Positions 1,292 through 61,762 of a stretch of DNA of 64,000 nt are shown in pieces. Position numbers and translations under genes: made by a program. This stretch comes from a virus. The first letter of the stretch is position 1. Every line of letters begins with the position of its first letter. A model generated the notes under the pieces. The model was not told the origin of the DNA. It saw only the letters and a program-made list of their open reading frames with translations, and did no database searches. The DNA lies in IMG/VR virus record IMGVR_UViG_3300049489_000321, positions 62,001-126,000 of that record. One strand, written 5' to 3'.

Positions 1292-2734
1292 ATGAACGGA
1301 GTAAGTCTAGCTCATTACAACAGCCAGCCGGTTAGCGGCTTTGGTACTGCCCCTGCTGCTGATGTACAAGAATTGTCAAAGGCCCTAGAGGCCGGCTACC
1401 AAGTGTCGTCACAGACAGGTGGTGGCGCTCTACGCGTCGAATCTCTAGAGGGTTCTCTAAAGGTTGTCTCGTACACTTCTCACCACATCAAGATGTGGAA
1501 GAAGATCCACAAGAGCCCAGCGTACAGCACGGTTGAAGAGTACAACCAGCTAACTGCGTACGGCTCAAACGCTAACGCCTTCCTACGTGAAGGCGAACTA
1601 GCGCCAACCCAGGACTCAACTTACGCGCGTAGAACCGCGTTCGTTAAGTACATCGGCGTTACCCGCGAGGTAAGTCACCCGATGACCGTTGTCCACCCTG
1701 CTCACGGCGATGTTATCGCTCTGGAAAACCAGAATGGTATTCTCTGGCTGCTACAGCAAGTCGAGAACTCACTATTCCACGGTGATTCAAGCCTAGCGTT
1801 TAGCGGTGAATCAGAGCAGTGGGATGGTCTCGATGCTCTAATTGATCCAACCTCGTACCTCGACCTCGAAGGCGACCCAATGCAGGAAGCCGATATTGAA
1901 GAGGCTACTAACCTACTAGTTGAACAGTTTGCGTACCCCACCGACCTCTGGCTCGGTACCCGCAATGCTTCTGACCTAGTTAAGACTTTCTACCCACGTG
2001 AGCGCGTATCGCTCCCAGCTCCTGAAAATGGTCGCGTTGGTATGAACGTTAGCTCGGTGATGACGCAGGCCGGCGTGATGGAACTCAACCCATCCGTCTT
2101 CCTACGTGAACTACCCTCACCTCCTTCGGCGGCTACTAGTTCTAATGCCCCAGCGCAGCCAGCGTCAATTGCTGGTGTTGCGGCGGCTACTGGTACGGGT
2201 AACTTCACTAAGGGTGCCCCATCCGGTACTGTTTACTACGGCTATGCGGTTACTTCATGTAACCGTTTCGGTGAATCTGCGCCTCGCTTCATTGCAGCTA
2301 ACAACGTCGAAATGACGCAAGCTAACGCGGAGGCTCTAGAGTCTATTGCTCTTACGATCACCAACGCGGCTTCAGTTGGAACTTTCCCACCTGAGTACTT
2401 CCGTATATACCGTACTAACGCTCTGCCGACCGACACACTAACCTCAGACGTTGCCGACTATAGTCTTGTGATGCAGGTTCCTGCTGATTCACAGGCTAAC
2501 AGCGGCGTCACTGCGGCTTCTGACGTTAACTTCCTACTACCATTTACCAGCATTGCGTACATGGGTGAAATGACTGAACAGGTTCTAACCTTCCGTCAGT
2601 TACTACCCCTAATGCGTATGGATCTAGCGGTTACTTCACCAAGCTACCGTTGGATGATTCTAATGTACGGAACTCCAATTCTGTTCGCGAATCGCAAGTG
2701 GCTACGTATTATCAACGTAGGTCGCCTAGAATAG
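1292..2734 (+). CDS. Major capsid protein with an inserted Ig/FnIII-like domain
   Basis: A 480-residue protein with a good ribosome binding site (AAAGGAG before ATG at 1292). The N-terminal two thirds read like an HK97-fold capsid protein: an N-arm, then a basic segment (IKMWKKIHKSPAYSTVEEYN) and a conserved acidic/hydrophobic core. Residues about 280-400 form a beta-rich segment (TVYYGYAVTSCNRFGESAP, YFRIYRTN) typical of a fibronectin/Ig-like insertion, after which the capsid core resumes to the C-terminus. Codons are strongly biased, with CTA the main leucine codon, as expected for a very highly expressed gene with an unusual tRNA supply. A terminator follows at 2762. Assignment rests on order, length and motif character, not on a database match. 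Confidence 0.85.
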   Translation: MNGVSLAHYNSQPVSGFGTAPAADVQELSKALEAGYQVSSQTGGGALRVESLEGSLKVVSYTSHHIKMWKKIHKSPAYSTVEEYNQLTAYGSNANAFLREGELAPTQDSTYARRTAFVKYIGVTREVSHPMTVVHPAHGDVIALENQNGILWLLQQVENSLFHGDSSLAFSGESEQWDGLDALIDPTSYLDLEGDPMQEADIEEATNLLVEQFAYPTDLWLGTRNASDLVKTFYPRERVSLPAPENGRVGMNVSSVMTQAGVMELNPSVFLRELPSPPSAATSSNAPAQPASIAGVAAATGTGNFTKGAPSGTVYYGYAVTSCNRFGESAPRFIAANNVEMTQANAEALESIALTITNAASVGTFPPEYFRIYRTNALPTDTLTSDVADYSLVMQVPADSQANSGVTAASDVNFLLPFTSIAYMGEMTEQVLTFRQLLPLMRMDLAVTSPSYRWMILMYGTPILFANRKWLRIINVGRLE

Positions 2735-8990: not shown

Positions 8991-11354
8991 ATGGCTAGAT
9001 CGTTTACATTTAATGGAAAAACTCGCTTAACACCTGGTGCTATAAGTAGAGTTACAACAAATAGTTTAACTGGAAGCGGCGGTACTAACGGCATAGTTTC
9101 ACTAATAGGTGAGGCGGACGGAGGAACGCCAGGAGAAGTACTTACCTTCGATGATCCAGACGAAGCTATCGAGCATTTCGGTTCAGGACCGCTAGCCGAC
9201 GCTGCTAGAATAGTTTTTGATCCATCTGCTGACCCAAGAGTCCCTGGTGGTGCTTTTAGAATCCTTTGTTATAAAGTAAACGCTGCAACACAAGCCAGCA
9301 CCACTCTTCCTTCTGAACAGGTTCTTCTAGGTACTACTCTTGATGGCGACTGCACTTCTACTGTTCTTAACTGGACAGGAGCACCTGTTTTAGCGGTAGA
9401 TTCCCGCATTGGTTCTTGGGTTATGGTGAATGGCGAAAAGCGCAGGATCGTATCGAACACTGCCGACAGCATTACTGTTTCACAGGCTTTCTCTACCACT
9501 CCTGCGTTAAACGACAACTTCTATGTTTTGTCAAACGCGCTAGAGATTACATCAATTGACTACGGCGCGCACACCAATCTTATCCGTGCCGAAGTAGAGC
9601 CTGGCGACGGAGATAACACCAGTGTAGTTACTATTAGTTACGACGAATCTACTGAACAATCAGGTGATTTAGGCGGTAACGCTGTTCTAGAGGTAATGTA
9701 CCTAGGCGGACCAGTACCTGATCAGGGAGATACTGGCCCTGCCGCGCAGGATGTTGTGGTTACGGCTGCGACTACTTCTACCGTATCCGCGACTTTTGTT
9801 GATGCTCCCGAACCTAACCAATACGATGGTTACGTTATTGAATTTGAAAGCGGACTTCGTAGATTAATTGCTAGCCACAATACCAGCACTTCCGCAGTGT
9901 TTACTCTTGATGGGGACACTCCTTTAACTGCTGGTGAAGCTGTAGCTGTAGTTGGCGAAACCATGACTATCCGCGCTGTAACTGCTGCAACTGCCTCAAT
10001 AGTCGGTAGCGGCGGCGTAGCAACAGGTTTTGAGACTGCAATTACGATGGAACCTGTTTCTGTTGCCGATGATCTTGATTTAGATTTTCTCCCAGATGAA
10101 ACATTAGCCGCCTTTATCACGCGCGTAAATGCTGGCGGAAAGTATCTGCTTGCGGCAGGTGAAGGTATTAATGCTAACACTACTTTAATGAAGGAGATGG
10201 ATTTTGGTACTCGCGCTACTGCTGTAGACGTTAGATTTGATCACACAATTGAATATGACGATAGAGGTACCTTCCGTGCTGATCTACAAGCCGTCGTTGA
10301 CTGGATTAACGATAACTCTTCAATCGTTACTTGCGAACGCCATGCAGTTGAAGGGTCGGAGTTACCCGCGTATACTGGTGGATCCGCGTCTATAGTTGAT
10401 GACGTTGCTACCTATTTAATTGGCGGTACTCGTGGTTCTTCAACCAACTCTGATTGGCAAGATGGTTTTGACGCCCTTCTAGAAGTACGGCACCAGCACT
10501 GCGCGCCTTTAATTAGCTATGATTTAGCTGATGATGGGCTGGGTTCAACTGCTACGTTTGCCTCCGTTGCCGCACAGGCCGCTTCTTTCGCGGATGCTGC
10601 TAATAGCGGTATGAATGCCGGTGCCGGTGAACTAGGTGTTTACCTTGGTATGGATGGTACTAAGACCGAACTTCTTGCTTTAACCAACGTCACTAATAAT
10701 CCGAACGTCCACGTTACAGGACAGAAGATGACTGTACTCGATCCCACAGGAACACTAGCGGAGAAGCCGGAATGGTCTGCGGCTGCTAACGCGGCTGGTA
10801 TGCGCGCCGGTATGCCCGATGTAGGCGAGTCACTTACCTTCAAGAAGGCCAAGTGCGTAGGAATTTCAAATGATCCAAGCTGGAGGACCAAGAGCGACAC
10901 GGATCGTAATGCGTTAGTTGAGGGCGGTGTCATGTTCCTAGAAGCGGCTCCAAATGGTGGTTTCCGCTGGGTTCGTGACTTAACTTCATACATTAGCGAT
11001 GACGACAACAATAACTACATTGATGGCGCTGTTCGTGACGCTACGCGTTACATAACATATGACCTTCGTTCTAGCGTCGAAGAACGCTTCACAGGCGAGG
11101 CGAGAGCGGCTACTGTTTCGTCAATCAGATCGTTCGTTTCAGAGAAATTGGACATATACTATAAGGCTGGAATTTTGGTTGACTCAAACGATCCAGAAGA
11201 TCCAAATAGCACCACAGTTATTCCTGGTTGGAGACGCCTAAAGGTTTCTATCGTCGGAAACACTGCAAATATTAAGGCTGAAGTATTTGTTATCAATTCT
11301 GTTGTATTCGAGGGAATTGATATTTCTGTACAAGTCCCGCAACTTGTTGGATAA
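8991..11354 (+). CDS. Contractile tail sheath protein
   Basis: A 787-residue protein with a strong AAAGGAG site. The opening (residues about 1-100, with GGTNGIVSLIGEADGGTPGEV and an AIEHFGSGPLADAA segment) is the sheath N-terminal pattern. The C-terminal third (DGAVRDATRYITYDLRSSVE and WRRLKVSIVGNTANIKAEVF) matches the conserved sheath C-terminal domain that interlocks subunits. It is long for a sheath; extra beta-rich surface domains occupy residues about 100-330. One of these, VLAVDSRIGSWVMVNGEKRR, resembles the repeated module found in the baseplate genes. Unusually, the tube gene is not next to it but about 6.7 kb downstream. Confidence 0.9.
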   Translation: MARSFTFNGKTRLTPGAISRVTTNSLTGSGGTNGIVSLIGEADGGTPGEVLTFDDPDEAIEHFGSGPLADAARIVFDPSADPRVPGGAFRILCYKVNAATQASTTLPSEQVLLGTTLDGDCTSTVLNWTGAPVLAVDSRIGSWVMVNGEKRRIVSNTADSITVSQAFSTTPALNDNFYVLSNALEITSIDYGAHTNLIRAEVEPGDGDNTSVVTISYDESTEQSGDLGGNAVLEVMYLGGPVPDQGDTGPAAQDVVVTAATTSTVSATFVDAPEPNQYDGYVIEFESGLRRLIASHNTSTSAVFTLDGDTPLTAGEAVAVVGETMTIRAVTAATASIVGSGGVATGFETAITMEPVSVADDLDLDFLPDETLAAFITRVNAGGKYLLAAGEGINANTTLMKEMDFGTRATAVDVRFDHTIEYDDRGTFRADLQAVVDWINDNSSIVTCERHAVEGSELPAYTGGSASIVDDVATYLIGGTRGSSTNSDWQDGFDALLEVRHQHCAPLISYDLADDGLGSTATFASVAAQAASFADAANSGMNAGAGELGVYLGMDGTKTELLALTNVTNNPNVHVTGQKMTVLDPTGTLAEKPEWSAAANAAGMRAGMPDVGESLTFKKAKCVGISNDPSWRTKSDTDRNALVEGGVMFLEAAPNGGFRWVRDLTSYISDDDNNNYIDGAVRDATRYITYDLRSSVEERFTGEARAATVSSIRSFVSEKLDIYYKAGILVDSNDPEDPNSTTVIPGWRRLKVSIVGNTANIKAEVFVINSVVFEGIDISVQVPQLVG

Positions 11355-14457: not shown

Positions 14458-15753
14458 ATGGATATAACTCAATATTTTAGCGGTATGCCAGTAGAGGCTA
14501 AAAACGCTATACAAAAAGAGCTAGAAAGTACAGACGATGTATGGCCTGTGTTCGTTTTCCGTCCTGGAGACCCAGACGGAACTAGACAAAACGTTTATAC
14601 ATCGTGGACTGAGCTAATGTCTGCTTTAGACGCAACCCGCGAGAATGGCATACGGTATTTACAGTTTGACTTTGGATACACTGGCGGCACGTTTGACGTA
14701 CCTGCTGGAACTTGGGACTTTACTGATGTAAAGTGGACTGACACTATGCGGCGTGGTAACGGTGGGTTATTTGCCTTTACAGGCGGAATTTTCCTCGGTG
14801 ATGGCGTAATAATCGAAAACCTAGCATTTATAGAACTTCATGCCACAGACGTAATCTGCACCAGTGAGACAACGGTGCCTATGACATTTAACGAGACTTG
14901 GCATACTATATGTCTTGGCGGTTCGCAGACGTGGCTGTATTCGCTAACTTCTGTGCCGCTCATCCGTCTTGGTGCCACGTTTTGTCCGCCCATTACGGTG
15001 GAGAACCCAGAAGGCGCCTTCCCGCTGTACGAATCGTCGTTTCTAGGTACAGCAGGTTTGACGACGCTAGGATCATTGTACGCAGGGTACGACTACGGCA
15101 CACCTACCGTAGACCTGATGGGTCGTGGTGTTGGTTTAGTGTGTAACTGGGAACGCAACACATTCGTAAACTCGTGCCCATATCCTTCGGGAGCATACAT
15201 AGAGTCAATCAACTCTATCCCAAGTTTCGGCGCAGGTTCATTTGGTGACCCTTTTTCTGAAACTAATACGCAAGGAAATAACTACGATCTATCCGCTACT
15301 CTAGACGTGTCTATGGTCACAATCAGCGTAGCACGGTACGCCTACGCGTCAGGCTGGCAGACAGCTCCGGATCGCGGCATGCCGATCACACCTACACGTT
15401 GGCCGGACGGGTTCCACCCTCCGTACGGCGCTGTAACCAATTGTGATCCAACCACAGGACCGGTTGACGTGTACTTGGAGGGAGCTTATCCTAACTTCGG
15501 TTCTCAGTATCTAATAGCTGATTCAGTTGGAACATGTGGTGTTGGTAACGAGATCCGGATACATGCCAAACCTGGTGAGTTGATCAATGGAGTTAATCCG
15601 TACGTACTTGATACGCCATACGGGGCTGCCATGTTGGTGTCGGTTCCTGACGGTCCCGGTGCTTATGAGCCTGTAAAGGGAGACCCGGTTGGAACGTACC
15701 CAATTAAAAACACTATAATCGGACAATGGATTGTGCTTAAGGGAGGCGCGTAA
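14458..15753 (+). CDS. Beta-solenoid tail fibre/receptor-binding protein, copy 1
   Basis: A 431-residue protein, clearly paralogous over its whole length to the 434-residue protein at 15958. The N-terminus (MDITQYFSGMP) is nearly identical between the copies. The NVYTSWTELMSALDATRENG segment, then alternating short strands (GTWDFTDVKWTD, GDGVIIENLAFIEL), is typical of a right-handed beta-helix cap and rungs used in host recognition. The C-terminal beta domain ends IGQWIVLKGGA. The AGGAG at 14438-14442 is 15 bases from ATG, an unusually long spacing that includes eight A residues. The role in receptor binding is inferred. Confidence 0.8.
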   Translation: MDITQYFSGMPVEAKNAIQKELESTDDVWPVFVFRPGDPDGTRQNVYTSWTELMSALDATRENGIRYLQFDFGYTGGTFDVPAGTWDFTDVKWTDTMRRGNGGLFAFTGGIFLGDGVIIENLAFIELHATDVICTSETTVPMTFNETWHTICLGGSQTWLYSLTSVPLIRLGATFCPPITVENPEGAFPLYESSFLGTAGLTTLGSLYAGYDYGTPTVDLMGRGVGLVCNWERNTFVNSCPYPSGAYIESINSIPSFGAGSFGDPFSETNTQGNNYDLSATLDVSMVTISVARYAYASGWQTAPDRGMPITPTRWPDGFHPPYGAVTNCDPTTGPVDVYLEGAYPNFGSQYLIADSVGTCGVGNEIRIHAKPGELINGVNPYVLDTPYGAAMLVSVPDGPGAYEPVKGDPVGTYPIKNTIIGQWIVLKGGA

Positions 15754-15755
15754 TT

Positions 15756-15905
15756 ATGCCTACAATTAAGGAAAATATTACGGCTGCTGTTGTTGCGTTA
15801 AATACTGCAAAACGCACACATGGACAAGACAGTAAAGAAGCTAATGAAGCGCGCCTAGTATTGACTAATTTAATAAAACAAGCTAGAGAAGCGACTGAGA
15901 ACTAG
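15756..15905 (+). CDS. 49-residue helical-hairpin protein, copy 1
   Basis: A short gene two bases after the first solenoid gene. The product is exactly 49 residues and matches two other copies (17265 and 17650) in the pattern I-x4-A-A-x2-AL-x2-AK-x2-HG-x-DS-x-EA, followed by an AR-x2-L helix. The predicted fold is two amphipathic helices joined by the His-Gly-x-Asp-Ser turn. Because a copy follows each solenoid gene, a fibre-assembly, chaperone or capping role is suggested; this is inference. Confidence 0.75.
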   Translation: MPTIKENITAAVVALNTAKRTHGQDSKEANEARLVLTNLIKQAREATEN

Positions 15906-15957
15906 TGTATTTGTATCATTATATACAATAAATATACAACAAAGGATAAACAAACAA

Positions 15958-17262
15958 ATGGATATATCTCAATATTTTAGTGGAATGCCCGATGAAATTA
16001 AAAACGCATTTCAAGCAGAACTAGACAGCGCAGACACCTTGTGGTCTGTGTTCGTCTTCCGTCCTAGCGATCCAGGCGGTCAGCGCCAGAACGTGTACAC
16101 TTCTTGGACTGACCTAATGGCTGCTCTAGACGAGACACGCGAGAACGGCATTCGCCACCTTCAGTGGGACCTGTCTTTCCACGACAACTCATTCGATATT
16201 CCACCCGGTACGTGGAACTTCACTGATGTTAAATGGACTGACACCATGCGTAAGGGCAGAGGCGGTCTGTTCAATGCGACCCAGAGCATATTTGCTGGTG
16301 ACGATGTAATCATTGAAAATTTGTCGTATGTAGAGTTTGACGGATCTGAATTAGTCTGTACCAGTGAAACAACGGTTCCAATGACGTTCAGTCAGGATTG
16401 GCACCAGCTTTGGATAGGTGGCTGTTCAGGACAAATGTACTCGGTTTCATCTAAGCCACTCATTCGTCTTGGTGCCACGCTATGTCCTCCTATTTCGGAA
16501 GAAGATCCAGGTGGTGCATTCTTCCTCTACGAGTCAGCGATTATGGGCACTACTGGATTATCAACGTTTGGTAGCGTGTATTCGGGATACGACTTTACAA
16601 CTCCCGCTGTGGACTTAATGGGACGAGGCATTGGTCTCGTGTGTAACTGGGAGCGTAATATGTTCATGAATTCATGCACATATGCTTCTGGTGCGTACAT
16701 TGAGGCGTATATGACAGTGCCTAGCTTTGGCGCTGGATCGTTTGGTCCTCTGCCCACCGACGACTTTAAGTCGGGCAACGACCACAACTACGCTTCTACC
16801 TTGGATGTGTCGTTAGTTACGTTTAACCTCTCACGGTACTGCTACGCGGCTGGGTTCTCTACTCGACCTGACCTAGCTACCCCGGTTAATCCAACCAAGT
16901 GGCCTTTACCAAACGGATTTCACGTCGGGTACGGATCAGTAACTAACTGTGATACTACGGATGGTCCGCTAGACGTGTTTCTCCCGCTTGCTAATCCCAA
17001 CTTCGGTGCTCAGGTGCTGATTGTTGACTCGGTTGGCGCTGCTGGTGTTGGTAATGAGATCATTATTCACGCTAGAGCCGGTGAAACGATTAACGGCGCC
17101 GCGACGTACACCATTGACACTGCGCGAGGATCTGTTATGTTGGTGTCTGTTGCTGAAGGCGAAGCTGGTATCTACGAACCGTTGGCGTGGGGCGAGGGTG
17201 GAACCTACCCCGTCAAGAACCCCATCGTAGGACAGTGGATTATTGCATCAAAGGTAGTTTAA
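15958..17262 (+). CDS. Beta-solenoid tail fibre/receptor-binding protein, copy 2
   Basis: A 434-residue paralogue of the protein at 14458, aligned end to end. It has the same N-terminus, the NVYTSWTDLMAALDETRENG cap, the LVCNWERN motif, the GAYIEA and SFGAGSFG segments, and an IGQWII end. Differences cluster in the middle rungs and in the loop after SFGAGSFG, as expected if the two bind different receptors. Codons are somewhat more GC-rich than in copy 1. AAAGGA lies 11 bases before the start. The pair arose by tandem duplication together with the following 49-residue gene. Confidence 0.8.
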   Translation: MDISQYFSGMPDEIKNAFQAELDSADTLWSVFVFRPSDPGGQRQNVYTSWTDLMAALDETRENGIRHLQWDLSFHDNSFDIPPGTWNFTDVKWTDTMRKGRGGLFNATQSIFAGDDVIIENLSYVEFDGSELVCTSETTVPMTFSQDWHQLWIGGCSGQMYSVSSKPLIRLGATLCPPISEEDPGGAFFLYESAIMGTTGLSTFGSVYSGYDFTTPAVDLMGRGIGLVCNWERNMFMNSCTYASGAYIEAYMTVPSFGAGSFGPLPTDDFKSGNDHNYASTLDVSLVTFNLSRYCYAAGFSTRPDLATPVNPTKWPLPNGFHVGYGSVTNCDTTDGPLDVFLPLANPNFGAQVLIVDSVGAAGVGNEIIIHARAGETINGAATYTIDTARGSVMLVSVAEGEAGIYEPLAWGEGGTYPVKNPIVGQWIIASKVV

Positions 17263-17264
17263 TC

Positions 17265-17414
17265 ATGGCACTTAAAGAAGACATACAAGCAGCTACTGCT
17301 GCTCTGAGAGCGGCTAAGCAGGCTCACGGGCACGATAGTCCTGAGGCGGTTGCAGCGAGACTTGCGTTAGCTGCTCTAATTCAACAAGCCAAGGAAATAA
17401 AGAATGAGCAGTAA
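17265..17414 (+). CDS. 49-residue helical-hairpin protein, copy 2
   Basis: I start this at ATG 17265, two bases after the solenoid stop, rather than at an upstream in-frame ATG (17187) inside that gene, because the shorter form is exactly 49 residues like its two paralogues. Key features are AATAALRAAKQAHGHDSPEA followed by a second Ala/Leu-rich helix. Its last 11 bases overlap the start of the next small gene, so the two are probably translationally coupled. Confidence 0.75.
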   Translation: MALKEDIQAATAALRAAKQAHGHDSPEAVAARLALAALIQQAKEIKNEQ

Positions 17415-17649: not shown

Positions 17650-17799
17650 ATGAGCATTCCTAGTAAAGAAGAAGTTGAAGCAGCTGTTGCTGCACTTAGA
17701 TCTGCTAAGCAGGAGCATGGACACGACAGTCAGCAGGCCGCCGCTGCCAGAGCAGCGCTCGCTGCATTATTGCAGAGTGCGTCTGATAGACGCCAATAG
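17650..17799 (+). CDS. 49-residue helical-hairpin protein, copy 3
   Basis: The third 49-residue member: EEVEAAVAALRSAKQEHGHD, then SQQAAAARAALAALLQ. It is preceded by CGGAGA 12 bases before ATG. It has no solenoid gene directly before it, which suggests that one was lost or that this copy acts independently. It closes the fibre island; a three-hairpin 3' region and terminator follow. Confidence 0.75.
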   Translation: MSIPSKEEVEAAVAALRSAKQEHGHDSQQAAAARAALAALLQSASDRRQ

Positions 17800-17855
17800 T
17801 GTCTATAGTTTGATAGTTAAATAACTAACTCATCTACCAACGGTAGAAGAAGTCC

Positions 17856-17895
17856 AAGGGTCGCCTATAATAAAATAGGCGGCTCTTGTTTTTTT
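17856..17895 (+). terminator. Strong terminator closing the fibre island
   Basis: A 13-bp stem (17856-17868 pairing with 17875-17887, two G-T wobbles) and a six-base loop, then seven T residues at 17889-17895. Two smaller perfect hairpins precede it: TAGTTA/TAACTA at 17814-17827 and CTACC/GGTAG at 17834-17846. Confidence 0.94.
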
Positions 17896-17896
17896 A

Positions 17897-17925
17897 TTGA
17901 CAATAGTTGTATATTTTGGTATATT
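17897..17925 (+). promoter_or_regulatory. Consensus sigma70-type promoter
   Basis: A perfect -35 TTGACA (17897-17902), a 17-base spacer and -10 TATATT (17920-17925). It starts two bases after the preceding terminator. The predicted start is near 17932. It is the best promoter in the window and reads first into a structured leader and terminator, then into the tail tube gene. Confidence 0.88.
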
Positions 17926-17931
17926 AATGGA

Positions 17932-18028
17932 TAGCAAACACCAATAGGTGGCTTAGACTGGCTTTTAGGCGTTTCTAAGATGCGATTATTTAAGGCGATT
18001 TGGATATTCCAAGTCGCTTTTTTGTTTT
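17932..18028 (+). ncRNA. Candidate small RNA or attenuated leader (about 95 nt)
   Basis: The stretch between the promoter at 17897 and the terminator at 17992-18029 has no credible ORF. The RNA would hold a CACC-AATA-GGTG hairpin (17939-17950), a CTTAGA/TCTAAG pairing (17952-17957 with 17974-17979) and a 12-bp terminator stem. It may be a free phage small RNA or a leader whose terminator controls read-through into the tail tube and tail operon. No known RNA family is recognised. Confidence 0.55.
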
Positions 18029-18029
18029 T
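17992..18029 (+). terminator. Second terminator or attenuator upstream of the tail tube gene
   Basis: A 12-bp stem (17992-18003 with 18009-18020; two G-T pairs) with a five-base loop, then TTTGTTTTT. It lies only about 60 bases after the predicted transcription start and 52 bases before the tail tube ATG. Confidence 0.85.
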
Positions 18030-18080
18030 AAATGTACGTTGTTTGTTGTTACCAAATAAGTTAAGGAGAAAACAAAGACA

Positions 18081-18506
18081 ATGGCTGCTCAGACATTTAG
18101 TGGCGCTCGCGCCAGAGTACTGATTGATGGCAAAATCATTGGCTTCTGTGGCGGGTTATCCGGTTCAGAAAGCATTGATTATGAACCTGTAGACGTACTA
18201 AATCTATTAGAGGTAAAGGAATTTGTGCCGGTTGCGTATCGCGCGACACTATCAGCGCAGATGTTCCGTATTATTGGCAACTCTATCAAGAAGCAAGGTA
18301 TAATGCCTCGTGGTAACGACTTGGACATCCTAACAGCAGGCGACCTAACTGTCATGGTTGAAGACAAACTAAATCCAGGCCAGATTGCCGCGCAGTTTAC
18401 TGGTGTTAAATGCCAGGAGCATTCTTTCGATATTACTGCCAGAGGACTGGTGTCAGAGAACGTCAATTTCGTGGCGATTAGAGTGAAGGACGAGAGCGAA
18501 CTTTAA
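18081..18506 (+). CDS. Tail tube protein
   Basis: A 141-residue protein with the pattern of contractile-tail tube subunits. It opens FSGARARVLIDGKIIGFCGGL, has a VAYRATLSAQMFRI strand and a KLNPGQIAAQFTGVKCQEHS segment, and ends with a beta strand that closes the ring. Length matches the XkdM-type family. AAGGAG lies 12 bases before ATG, separated by an A-rich spacer. It is the first gene read from the strong promoter at 17897, after the attenuator. The sheath gene lies upstream beyond the fibre island. Confidence 0.85.
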   Translation: MAAQTFSGARARVLIDGKIIGFCGGLSGSESIDYEPVDVLNLLEVKEFVPVAYRATLSAQMFRIIGNSIKKQGIMPRGNDLDILTAGDLTVMVEDKLNPGQIAAQFTGVKCQEHSFDITARGLVSENVNFVAIRVKDESEL

Positions 18507-18595: not shown

Positions 18596-19087
18596 ATGAA
18601 AATAAAAGGCAAGCTACATACTTTTAAAATTAACCATAAAAGCGACAATGGCGAAGACTACGAAGGTACATTCGCCTGTCGCAAACAGTCTATTATAGAT
18701 CACTCCAAGATATCTCGCCGAAAAAGCGAACTATCAGGAGGCATGTATACCGTTAAAGATGAAGACGGTAATCCTACCGGTCAGGGTATAGACGAAGAGA
18801 CCGAGACTATCAACCACATCATTGCTACGCTAGAACAGGTTTTAGTCCAGAAGCCAGATTGGTGGGACCTTACCGTATTAGATGACTACAAGCTTATAAC
18901 TTCGGTTTTTAGTGAGGTGCAGAAGTTTGAAGCGTCCTTTCGAGGACGACGAGGATCGGGCGATAGCGACACAGGACATCTATCAAGCAGCGAAGGAAGT
19001 AGCGAAGAAGAACGTGCGCAATCCAACGCTGCCAACAATGCTCCGAAGGTGGTGGACAAAAAAGTATCAACTTCCTTGGACGCATAG
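18596..19087 (+). CDS. Tail assembly chaperone (short, G-like form)
   Basis: A 163-residue protein between the tail tube and tape measure genes, the normal place of the tail assembly chaperone. Residues 1-115 look folded (KLHTFKINHKSDNGEDYEG, then a helical WWDLTVLDDYKLITSVFSEV). After about residue 115 the frame becomes low-complexity (GSGDSDTGHLSSSEGSSEE), while a second frame of good quality opens, as expected if some ribosomes shift. AGGAGATAAT precedes the ATG. The chaperone coats the tape measure protein during tail growth. Confidence 0.82.
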   Translation: MKIKGKLHTFKINHKSDNGEDYEGTFACRKQSIIDHSKISRRKSELSGGMYTVKDEDGNPTGQGIDEETETINHIIATLEQVLVQKPDWWDLTVLDDYKLITSVFSEVQKFEASFRGRRGSGDSDTGHLSSSEGSSEEERAQSNAANNAPKVVDKKVSTSLDA

Positions 19088-61096: not shown

Positions 61097-61762
61097 ATGT
61101 CTGACGACGACGTAATTACTGCTTTGGAAAAGAAGCTAGAAGAAGGTCTAGAAATAGACGAGCAAACTATTATTGATCCTGATGATCGGCGTATGGTGGC
61201 GTATAAGCTACGTCTTAGAGGCCATAATTTTAAAGACATAGGTATAATGCTTAATGTGACTCCTGCGACTGCAAGCAAGTACGTGGATTCTGCCGCTAAG
61301 GCCACTAAACTAAGCATAGATAACTACGATCCAAAGCAGCACGTAGCGGAAATGGCACAATCATTAGAAGACATTATCCATACTGGGTGGGACATAGTGA
61401 ACAACACTGCCGATCCAGAGGTTAAATTAAAAGCACTACAAGAAGTTAGAAAAGCTATAAACGACAAGCAAAAAGCAGTAATGAACGCTGGTTTGATTAG
61501 TGGAGCGGCTCCCACCACTAATAATACGTTGAATTTCAATCTAATGGGAGATTGGACTGAGGACAACATAGACAACGCAATCGCGGCTGTTTTAGGACTA
61601 AGACTAACGACTCCTTTAAAACCGCCTCAGCCTGATTTAGAAGAGGTTGTTGAAGAATCTGCTGTAACTAAAGTTATTGATATTGCTGATGTTGTCGAAG
61701 TGATACCTGTTAAAGTGTCTACTGATGTTGAAGACGAAGATGAAGACGAATATGAGGATTAG
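61097..61762 (+). CDS. Terminase small subunit-like protein
   Basis: ATG 61097 is chosen over an earlier in-frame start inside the large subunit gene; 221 residues. Residues about 25-65 contain a helix-turn-helix (RLRGHNFKDIGIMLNVTPAT, then SKYVDSAAKA), the usual DNA-recognition element of small terminases. A helical oligomer part follows (DPEVKLKALQEVRKAINDKQ), then an asparagine-rich link and an acidic tail (VEDEDEDEYED). It recognises the packaging site and recruits the large subunit. Confidence 0.75.
   Translation: MSDDDVITALEKKLEEGLEIDEQTIIDPDDRRMVAYKLRLRGHNFKDIGIMLNVTPATASKYVDSAAKATKLSIDNYDPKQHVAEMAQSLEDIIHTGWDIVNNTADPEVKLKALQEVRKAINDKQKAVMNAGLISGAAPTTNNTLNFNLMGDWTEDNIDNAIAAVLGLRLTTPLKPPQPDLEEVVEESAVTKVIDIADVVEVIPVKVSTDVEDEDEDEYED

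Follow-up and report, generated by a model that had tools for sequence, protein, structure and literature searches.

We identified a strong promoter, a short folded leader and an intrinsic terminator lying together upstream of the first gene of a phage tail operon. Judged from the sequence and its relatives, this island probably supplies the tail operon with its promoter and with a cis-acting leader, an attenuator, and an RNA of about 93 nt would be its terminated product. The sequence-only reading had offered either a discrete small RNA or a tail operon governed by attenuation or antitermination. Since the promoter and a folded leader are kept in place in relatives, a control switch is probable over a stand-alone small RNA. 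Attenuation is favoured by the relatives whose leaders read into the tube gene, and in one group of them (group F) the leader pairs with the Shine-Dalgarno sequence; the discrete small RNA is the less likely half of the proposal.

The window (the whole 64,000-nucleotide stretch analysed) has a myovirus-like gene content, and its features are collected in Table 1. The gene order runs from the tail sheath through two paralogous fibre-like genes and the island to the tube-like gene and the tail assembly chaperone. The closest tail tubes belong to uncultured viral contigs (47-71% identity); no DNA-level match to the window was found among named phages, and no relatives were found in bacterial genomes. 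The two fibre-like genes (14458-17262) are tandem paralogues, 62% identical and without a Pfam match. Between them and the island, two 49-aa open reading frames (17265-17411 and 17650-17799) have the segment KEx(I/V)xAAxAALRxAKQxHGHD in common (71% over 21 aa), and no family match was found for either.

Table 1 Features of the window and of related loci; positions are those of the window unless a locus or record is named.
Feature	Position	Strand	Remarks
Window	G000:C1:62001-126000		part of a 147,530-base virus record
Major-capsid-like gene	1292-2734		43-46% identity to SPO1-like and Lysinibacillus phages
Tail sheath gene	8991-11354		phrog_279
Intrinsic terminator of upstream unit	17855-17896	+	14 bp stem (17855-17888), T7 tail
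Sigma70 promoter	17897-17925	+	TTGACA-N17-TATATT, TG before -10 (extended -10)
Predicted leader RNA / terminated product	17932-18026	+	about 93-95 nt; 5' end placed by its distance from the -10
Hairpin 1	17939-17950	+	CACC-AATA-GGTG; in register with relatives
Hairpin 2	17952-17979	+	CTTAGA...TCTAAG, 16-nt loop; on its own not above chance
Intrinsic terminator	17992-18029	+	13 bp stem (17992-18020), 3-nt loop, tail TTTTTTGTTTTT
Tail-tube Shine-Dalgarno	18064-18069 (approximate)	+	AAGGAG
Tail-tube-like gene	18081-18506	+	phrog_985; first gene of tail operon
Tail assembly chaperone-like gene	18596-19087	+	phrog_25000, phrog_1038; next after tube in operon
Group A loop hairpin	L010-L021, L040-L067		upstream of tail tube
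Head-operon promoter, short leader and terminator	L082:1405-1530 (G000 61405-61530)		TTGACT-17-TATTAT; 595 to 482 bases upstream of window start

The promoter had been called the best in the window, and it holds that rank on a wider scale. It matches the sigma70 consensus at 11 of 12 positions, the top match between 12 and 26 kb, and is the best of the 147.5-kb record once spacing and the extended -10 are counted; when the 270 nt 5' of the tube start codon were shuffled 200 times, its score was never reached. The stretch from the terminator to the tube ATG has no other sigma70-like site (6/12 at best), so that 17897 is the sole plausible tube promoter among sigma70-like sites. The sequence leaves room for a phage-specific late promoter of the tube gene. 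Late genes of SPO1-like phages are usually attributed to phage sigma factors. In this lineage the tail and head operons appear to lie behind ordinary strong promoters with attenuator-like leaders, kept across divergent relatives.

The terminator is as strong as had been claimed, and its U-tract ends 52 bases upstream of the tube ATG at 18081. A further terminator, absent from the earlier reading, closes the upstream unit directly 5' of the promoter, with a predicted fold of -22.4 kcal/mol. Terminator-like sites are frequent between 12 and 26 kb (25 found, against 10.1 +/- 3.7 expected), and these two are the clearly strong ones.

For the RNA at 17932-18024, the predicted fold has -30.8 kcal/mol (z -4.45), a stability that none of 200 shuffles reached. 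When the terminator is removed, the remaining leader (17932-17991) has a z of only -1.37, with 23 of 200 shuffles as stable. The fold signal of the RNA thus comes mainly from the terminator and not from the leader. The earlier prediction of a structured RNA of about 95 nt is therefore sustained as a prediction, at about 93 nt and driven by the terminator, whereas the two leader hairpins are of ordinary stability. Pairing of 17934-17936 with 17981-17983 closes hairpins 1 and 2 into a weak three-way junction. Pairing between the leader and the 5' arm of the terminator, as expected of an antiterminator, was equalled by 285 of 1000 shuffles. Searches with Rfam release 15, at gathering and permissive thresholds, gave no credible match; viral contigs yielded no exact match to the leader's 18-nt core, and the phage record no second copy of hairpins 1-2.

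The evidence for conservation comes from alignment with relatives. When their -10 boxes are superimposed, the window sequence and that of L001 (a group F relative) are collinear and gap-free (CACCAATAGGTG and CACCCATAGGTG, both at a 19-base offset), and hairpin 1 is identical at 11 of 12 positions. Hairpin 1 of L035 reads CGCCCATAGGCG, its second pair altered in a compensatory way. Among the 294,906 12-mers of the record, only 2, one of them hairpin 1, resemble one of the seven relatives' sequences in that position as closely; the comparison point was picked after the alignment had been seen, so this evidence is strong but not pre-registered. The covariance model of group F (R2) found no match genome-wide in the phage record, and on a 600-base region with filters off its best match was the -10 box plus hairpin 1 (E 0.013). 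On this evidence position, promoter and hairpin 1 are conserved. Hairpin 2 has the same layout as in relatives (6 bp, 16-nt loop), a resemblance of layout only. Of the two hairpins proposed as the regulatory part, hairpin 1 thus stands, being conserved in register with a compensatory change, while hairpin 2 and antiterminator pairing remain at chance level. By this comparison, the predicted tail leader keeps its promoter, hairpin 1 and position but not its terminator, which is the window's own putative expression platform.

The region 5' of the tail tube was compared in about 33 distinct relatives, all uncultured SPO1-like myophages and several of them fragments. Across these loci the gap carries structured RNA in several forms, which were assigned to groups visually; models back the grouping for group F and the head leader only. 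In 12 of the 13 relatives in groups D, F and G, all except L068, the ATG is preceded at 117-214 nt by a TTGAC[N]-17/18-TAnnnT promoter; L036 and L029 (with TTGATT) also belong to that part of the tree. Taken singly, most of these promoters are weak against shuffles, so the argument rests on their common position. The relatives' leaders run straight into the tube gene, often without a terminator; the short-loop terminator is found in the window only, and hairpins with a large loop and a U-tract occur in L031 and L053.

Group A comprises 16 distinct loci. All of them have the same 12-nt hairpin loop, GTCGTCCCCTCC, without variation, on stems that are divergent yet still pair. The stems fold with their own arms at a mean of -29.3 kcal/mol, against -15.0 for swapped arms (32 of 240 swaps are as stable as the weakest real hairpin), and flank identity is 37%. 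The covariance sought in related phages is thereby found both in these stems and in the compensatory pair of hairpin 1. The motif occurs once per genome, at the tube, in the ten records searched whole, and scanning viral contigs revealed no additional type linked to the tube. Searches inside phage genomes for a trans target of the loop gave chance-level matches only. Pairing of the loop with 16S rRNA 1180-1194 (11/12, one G-U) was rejected, as about 0.6 such sites are expected by chance on a rough hand estimate.

In group F (L001, L032, L034, L035, L037 and L068), hairpin 1 is followed by a loop, CGCGAYYCUCCGUC, whose sequence complements the GACGGAGG Shine-Dalgarno of the tube itself; that Shine-Dalgarno is predicted to be buried (unpaired probability 0.00-0.28). 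Both pairing partners change in L035 (CUCCAUC/GAU-GGAG against CUCCGUC/GACGGAG). In L001, the tail leader is separated from the tube gene by an open reading frame (9139-10000) that looks HNH-endonuclease-like by eye, and the leader's Shine-Dalgarno now stands 5' of this frame. Group D, with six loci, has a conserved three-hairpin leader.

A sister promoter-leader-terminator lies directly upstream of a prohead-protease-like gene in the same phage record. Its motif, CUCC-AAUAAA-GGGAG followed by a terminator with the 3' arm CUCCC-U(n), is present in 14 of 16 relatives, one copy per genome. Three strands co-vary (UUCC/GGGAA/UUUCC in L111, ACUC/GAGU/ACUCC in L109), which on these sequences is the signature expected of a terminator/antiterminator, and for roughly half of the relatives the upstream strand pairs with GGAG better than shuffled sequences do, at about the 5% level or below. 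The head leader looks like a new attenuator RNA family. A model of it (R1, the motif plus the CUCCC-U terminator) gave no match to the tail island; head leader and tail island are by this comparison different RNAs. A candidate repeat, ACTGGYTTTTARG, is common to both (12/14 match, p about 0.01). The sister leader makes leader-based control of structural operons likely in this lineage.

Under the attenuator reading, RNA polymerase would start near 17932 and make the folded leader, and part or most of it would stop at the terminator, releasing the RNA of about 93 nt. The tube and downstream genes would be made by read-through polymerases only, read-through thus feeding the tail operon. Regulation of termination may come from a phage or host factor that binds the leader, or from the state of transcription late in infection. 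Given that antiterminator pairing stays at chance level in the window, a protein or another trans factor on hairpins 1-2, or leakiness, is likelier than a self-contained switch.

The terminator could alternatively be constitutive and partial, setting a fixed dose of tail proteins without sensing, with the hairpins incidental or stabilising the mRNA 5' end. The ordinary stability of the leader hairpins, the chance-level antiterminator pairing and the lack of conservation of the terminator itself all agree with this, but we regard it as unlikely, as hairpin 1 is conserved in register, structured leaders covary in relatives and the three-strand head leader suggests a regulated element. Somewhat less probable still is a discrete trans-acting small RNA, with tail-operon transcripts originating at another site, either at a late phage-type promoter or by read-through from upstream. 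The strong promoter and terminator of its own, the compact predicted fold of about 93 nt and the terminator on the upstream side would suit such an RNA, and the terminated product would itself be one; against it stand the lack of a sigma70-like site between terminator and ATG, the continuation of relatives' leaders into tube mRNA without a terminator, and the failure to find another copy in the record or an exact viral-contig match to the core. Translational control as in group F, where the leader or U-tract would mask the Shine-Dalgarno of the read-through RNA, is strong in L032, L035, L068 and L037, and pairing of the window's U-tract to the A-rich ribosome-binding site is possible, but it is very improbable here, as 90 of 500 shuffles match that pairing, 470 of 500 match leader:Shine-Dalgarno pairing and the Shine-Dalgarno is mostly open (0.71).

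The attenuator reading has partial parallels in known systems. In phage lambda, late control uses the pR' promoter, the 6S leader RNA and the tR' terminator, which is opened by Q. The arrangement here is similar in placing a strong sigma70 promoter, a short leader and an intrinsic terminator before a late structural operon, with a free short RNA as by-product; it differs in that the first gene follows after about 50 bases, the leader is about 93 instead of about 190 nt, and head and tail operons each have their own leader. As in lambda nut/N and HK022 put, an RNA element lies between the promoter and the first terminator and could by analogy modify the polymerase, but no NusG-family antiterminator gene was found in eight records. 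A search of the phage record (G000) for sigma70 region 4 likewise gave no match. Like riboswitches and attenuators, the tail leaders combine a common position and hairpin 1 with different platforms, a terminator in the window and Shine-Dalgarno sequestration in group F, and covary in relatives (the compensatory pair of hairpin 1 and the group A stems); they differ in having no ligand-binding core recognised by Rfam and, in the window, no antiterminator pairing above chance. SPO1 and cultured Herelleviridae have the same order of sheath, tube, chaperone and tape measure and a major capsid 43-46% identical, but in SPO1 the sheath-tube gap is 3 nt and without a leader. In Myxococcus phage Mx1 this gap is 58 nt. 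In Listeria phage CKA15, terminators follow the tube and chaperone genes (PMC12282133).

Through leader control a phage could plausibly adjust, at the RNA level, how much head and tail protein it makes relative to each other and when, and two candidate RNA families absent from Rfam come out of the comparison, the hairpin with the invariant GUCGUCCCCUCC loop and the CUCC-AAUAAA-GGGAG head leader. More tentatively, and with the odds against it, this lineage of SPO1-related phages may time head and tail assembly by two unrelated leaders that sense trans partners (a phage assembly protein, or a host RNA or protein), the tail leader keeping its sensor position and swapping its platform among terminator, Shine-Dalgarno sequestration and loop-only forms.

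Two other promoter-terminator arrangements were observed. In L080 (8447-8560, - strand), a promoter-like site is followed about 90 bases on by a terminator whose U-tract abuts the AAGGAGAAAATG of a non-structural open reading frame. In L081 (8992-9235), where no open reading frame is assigned, a perfect TTGACA/TATAAT pair with a 19-nt spacer is followed first by about 200 bases of repeat sequence and then by a strong terminator.
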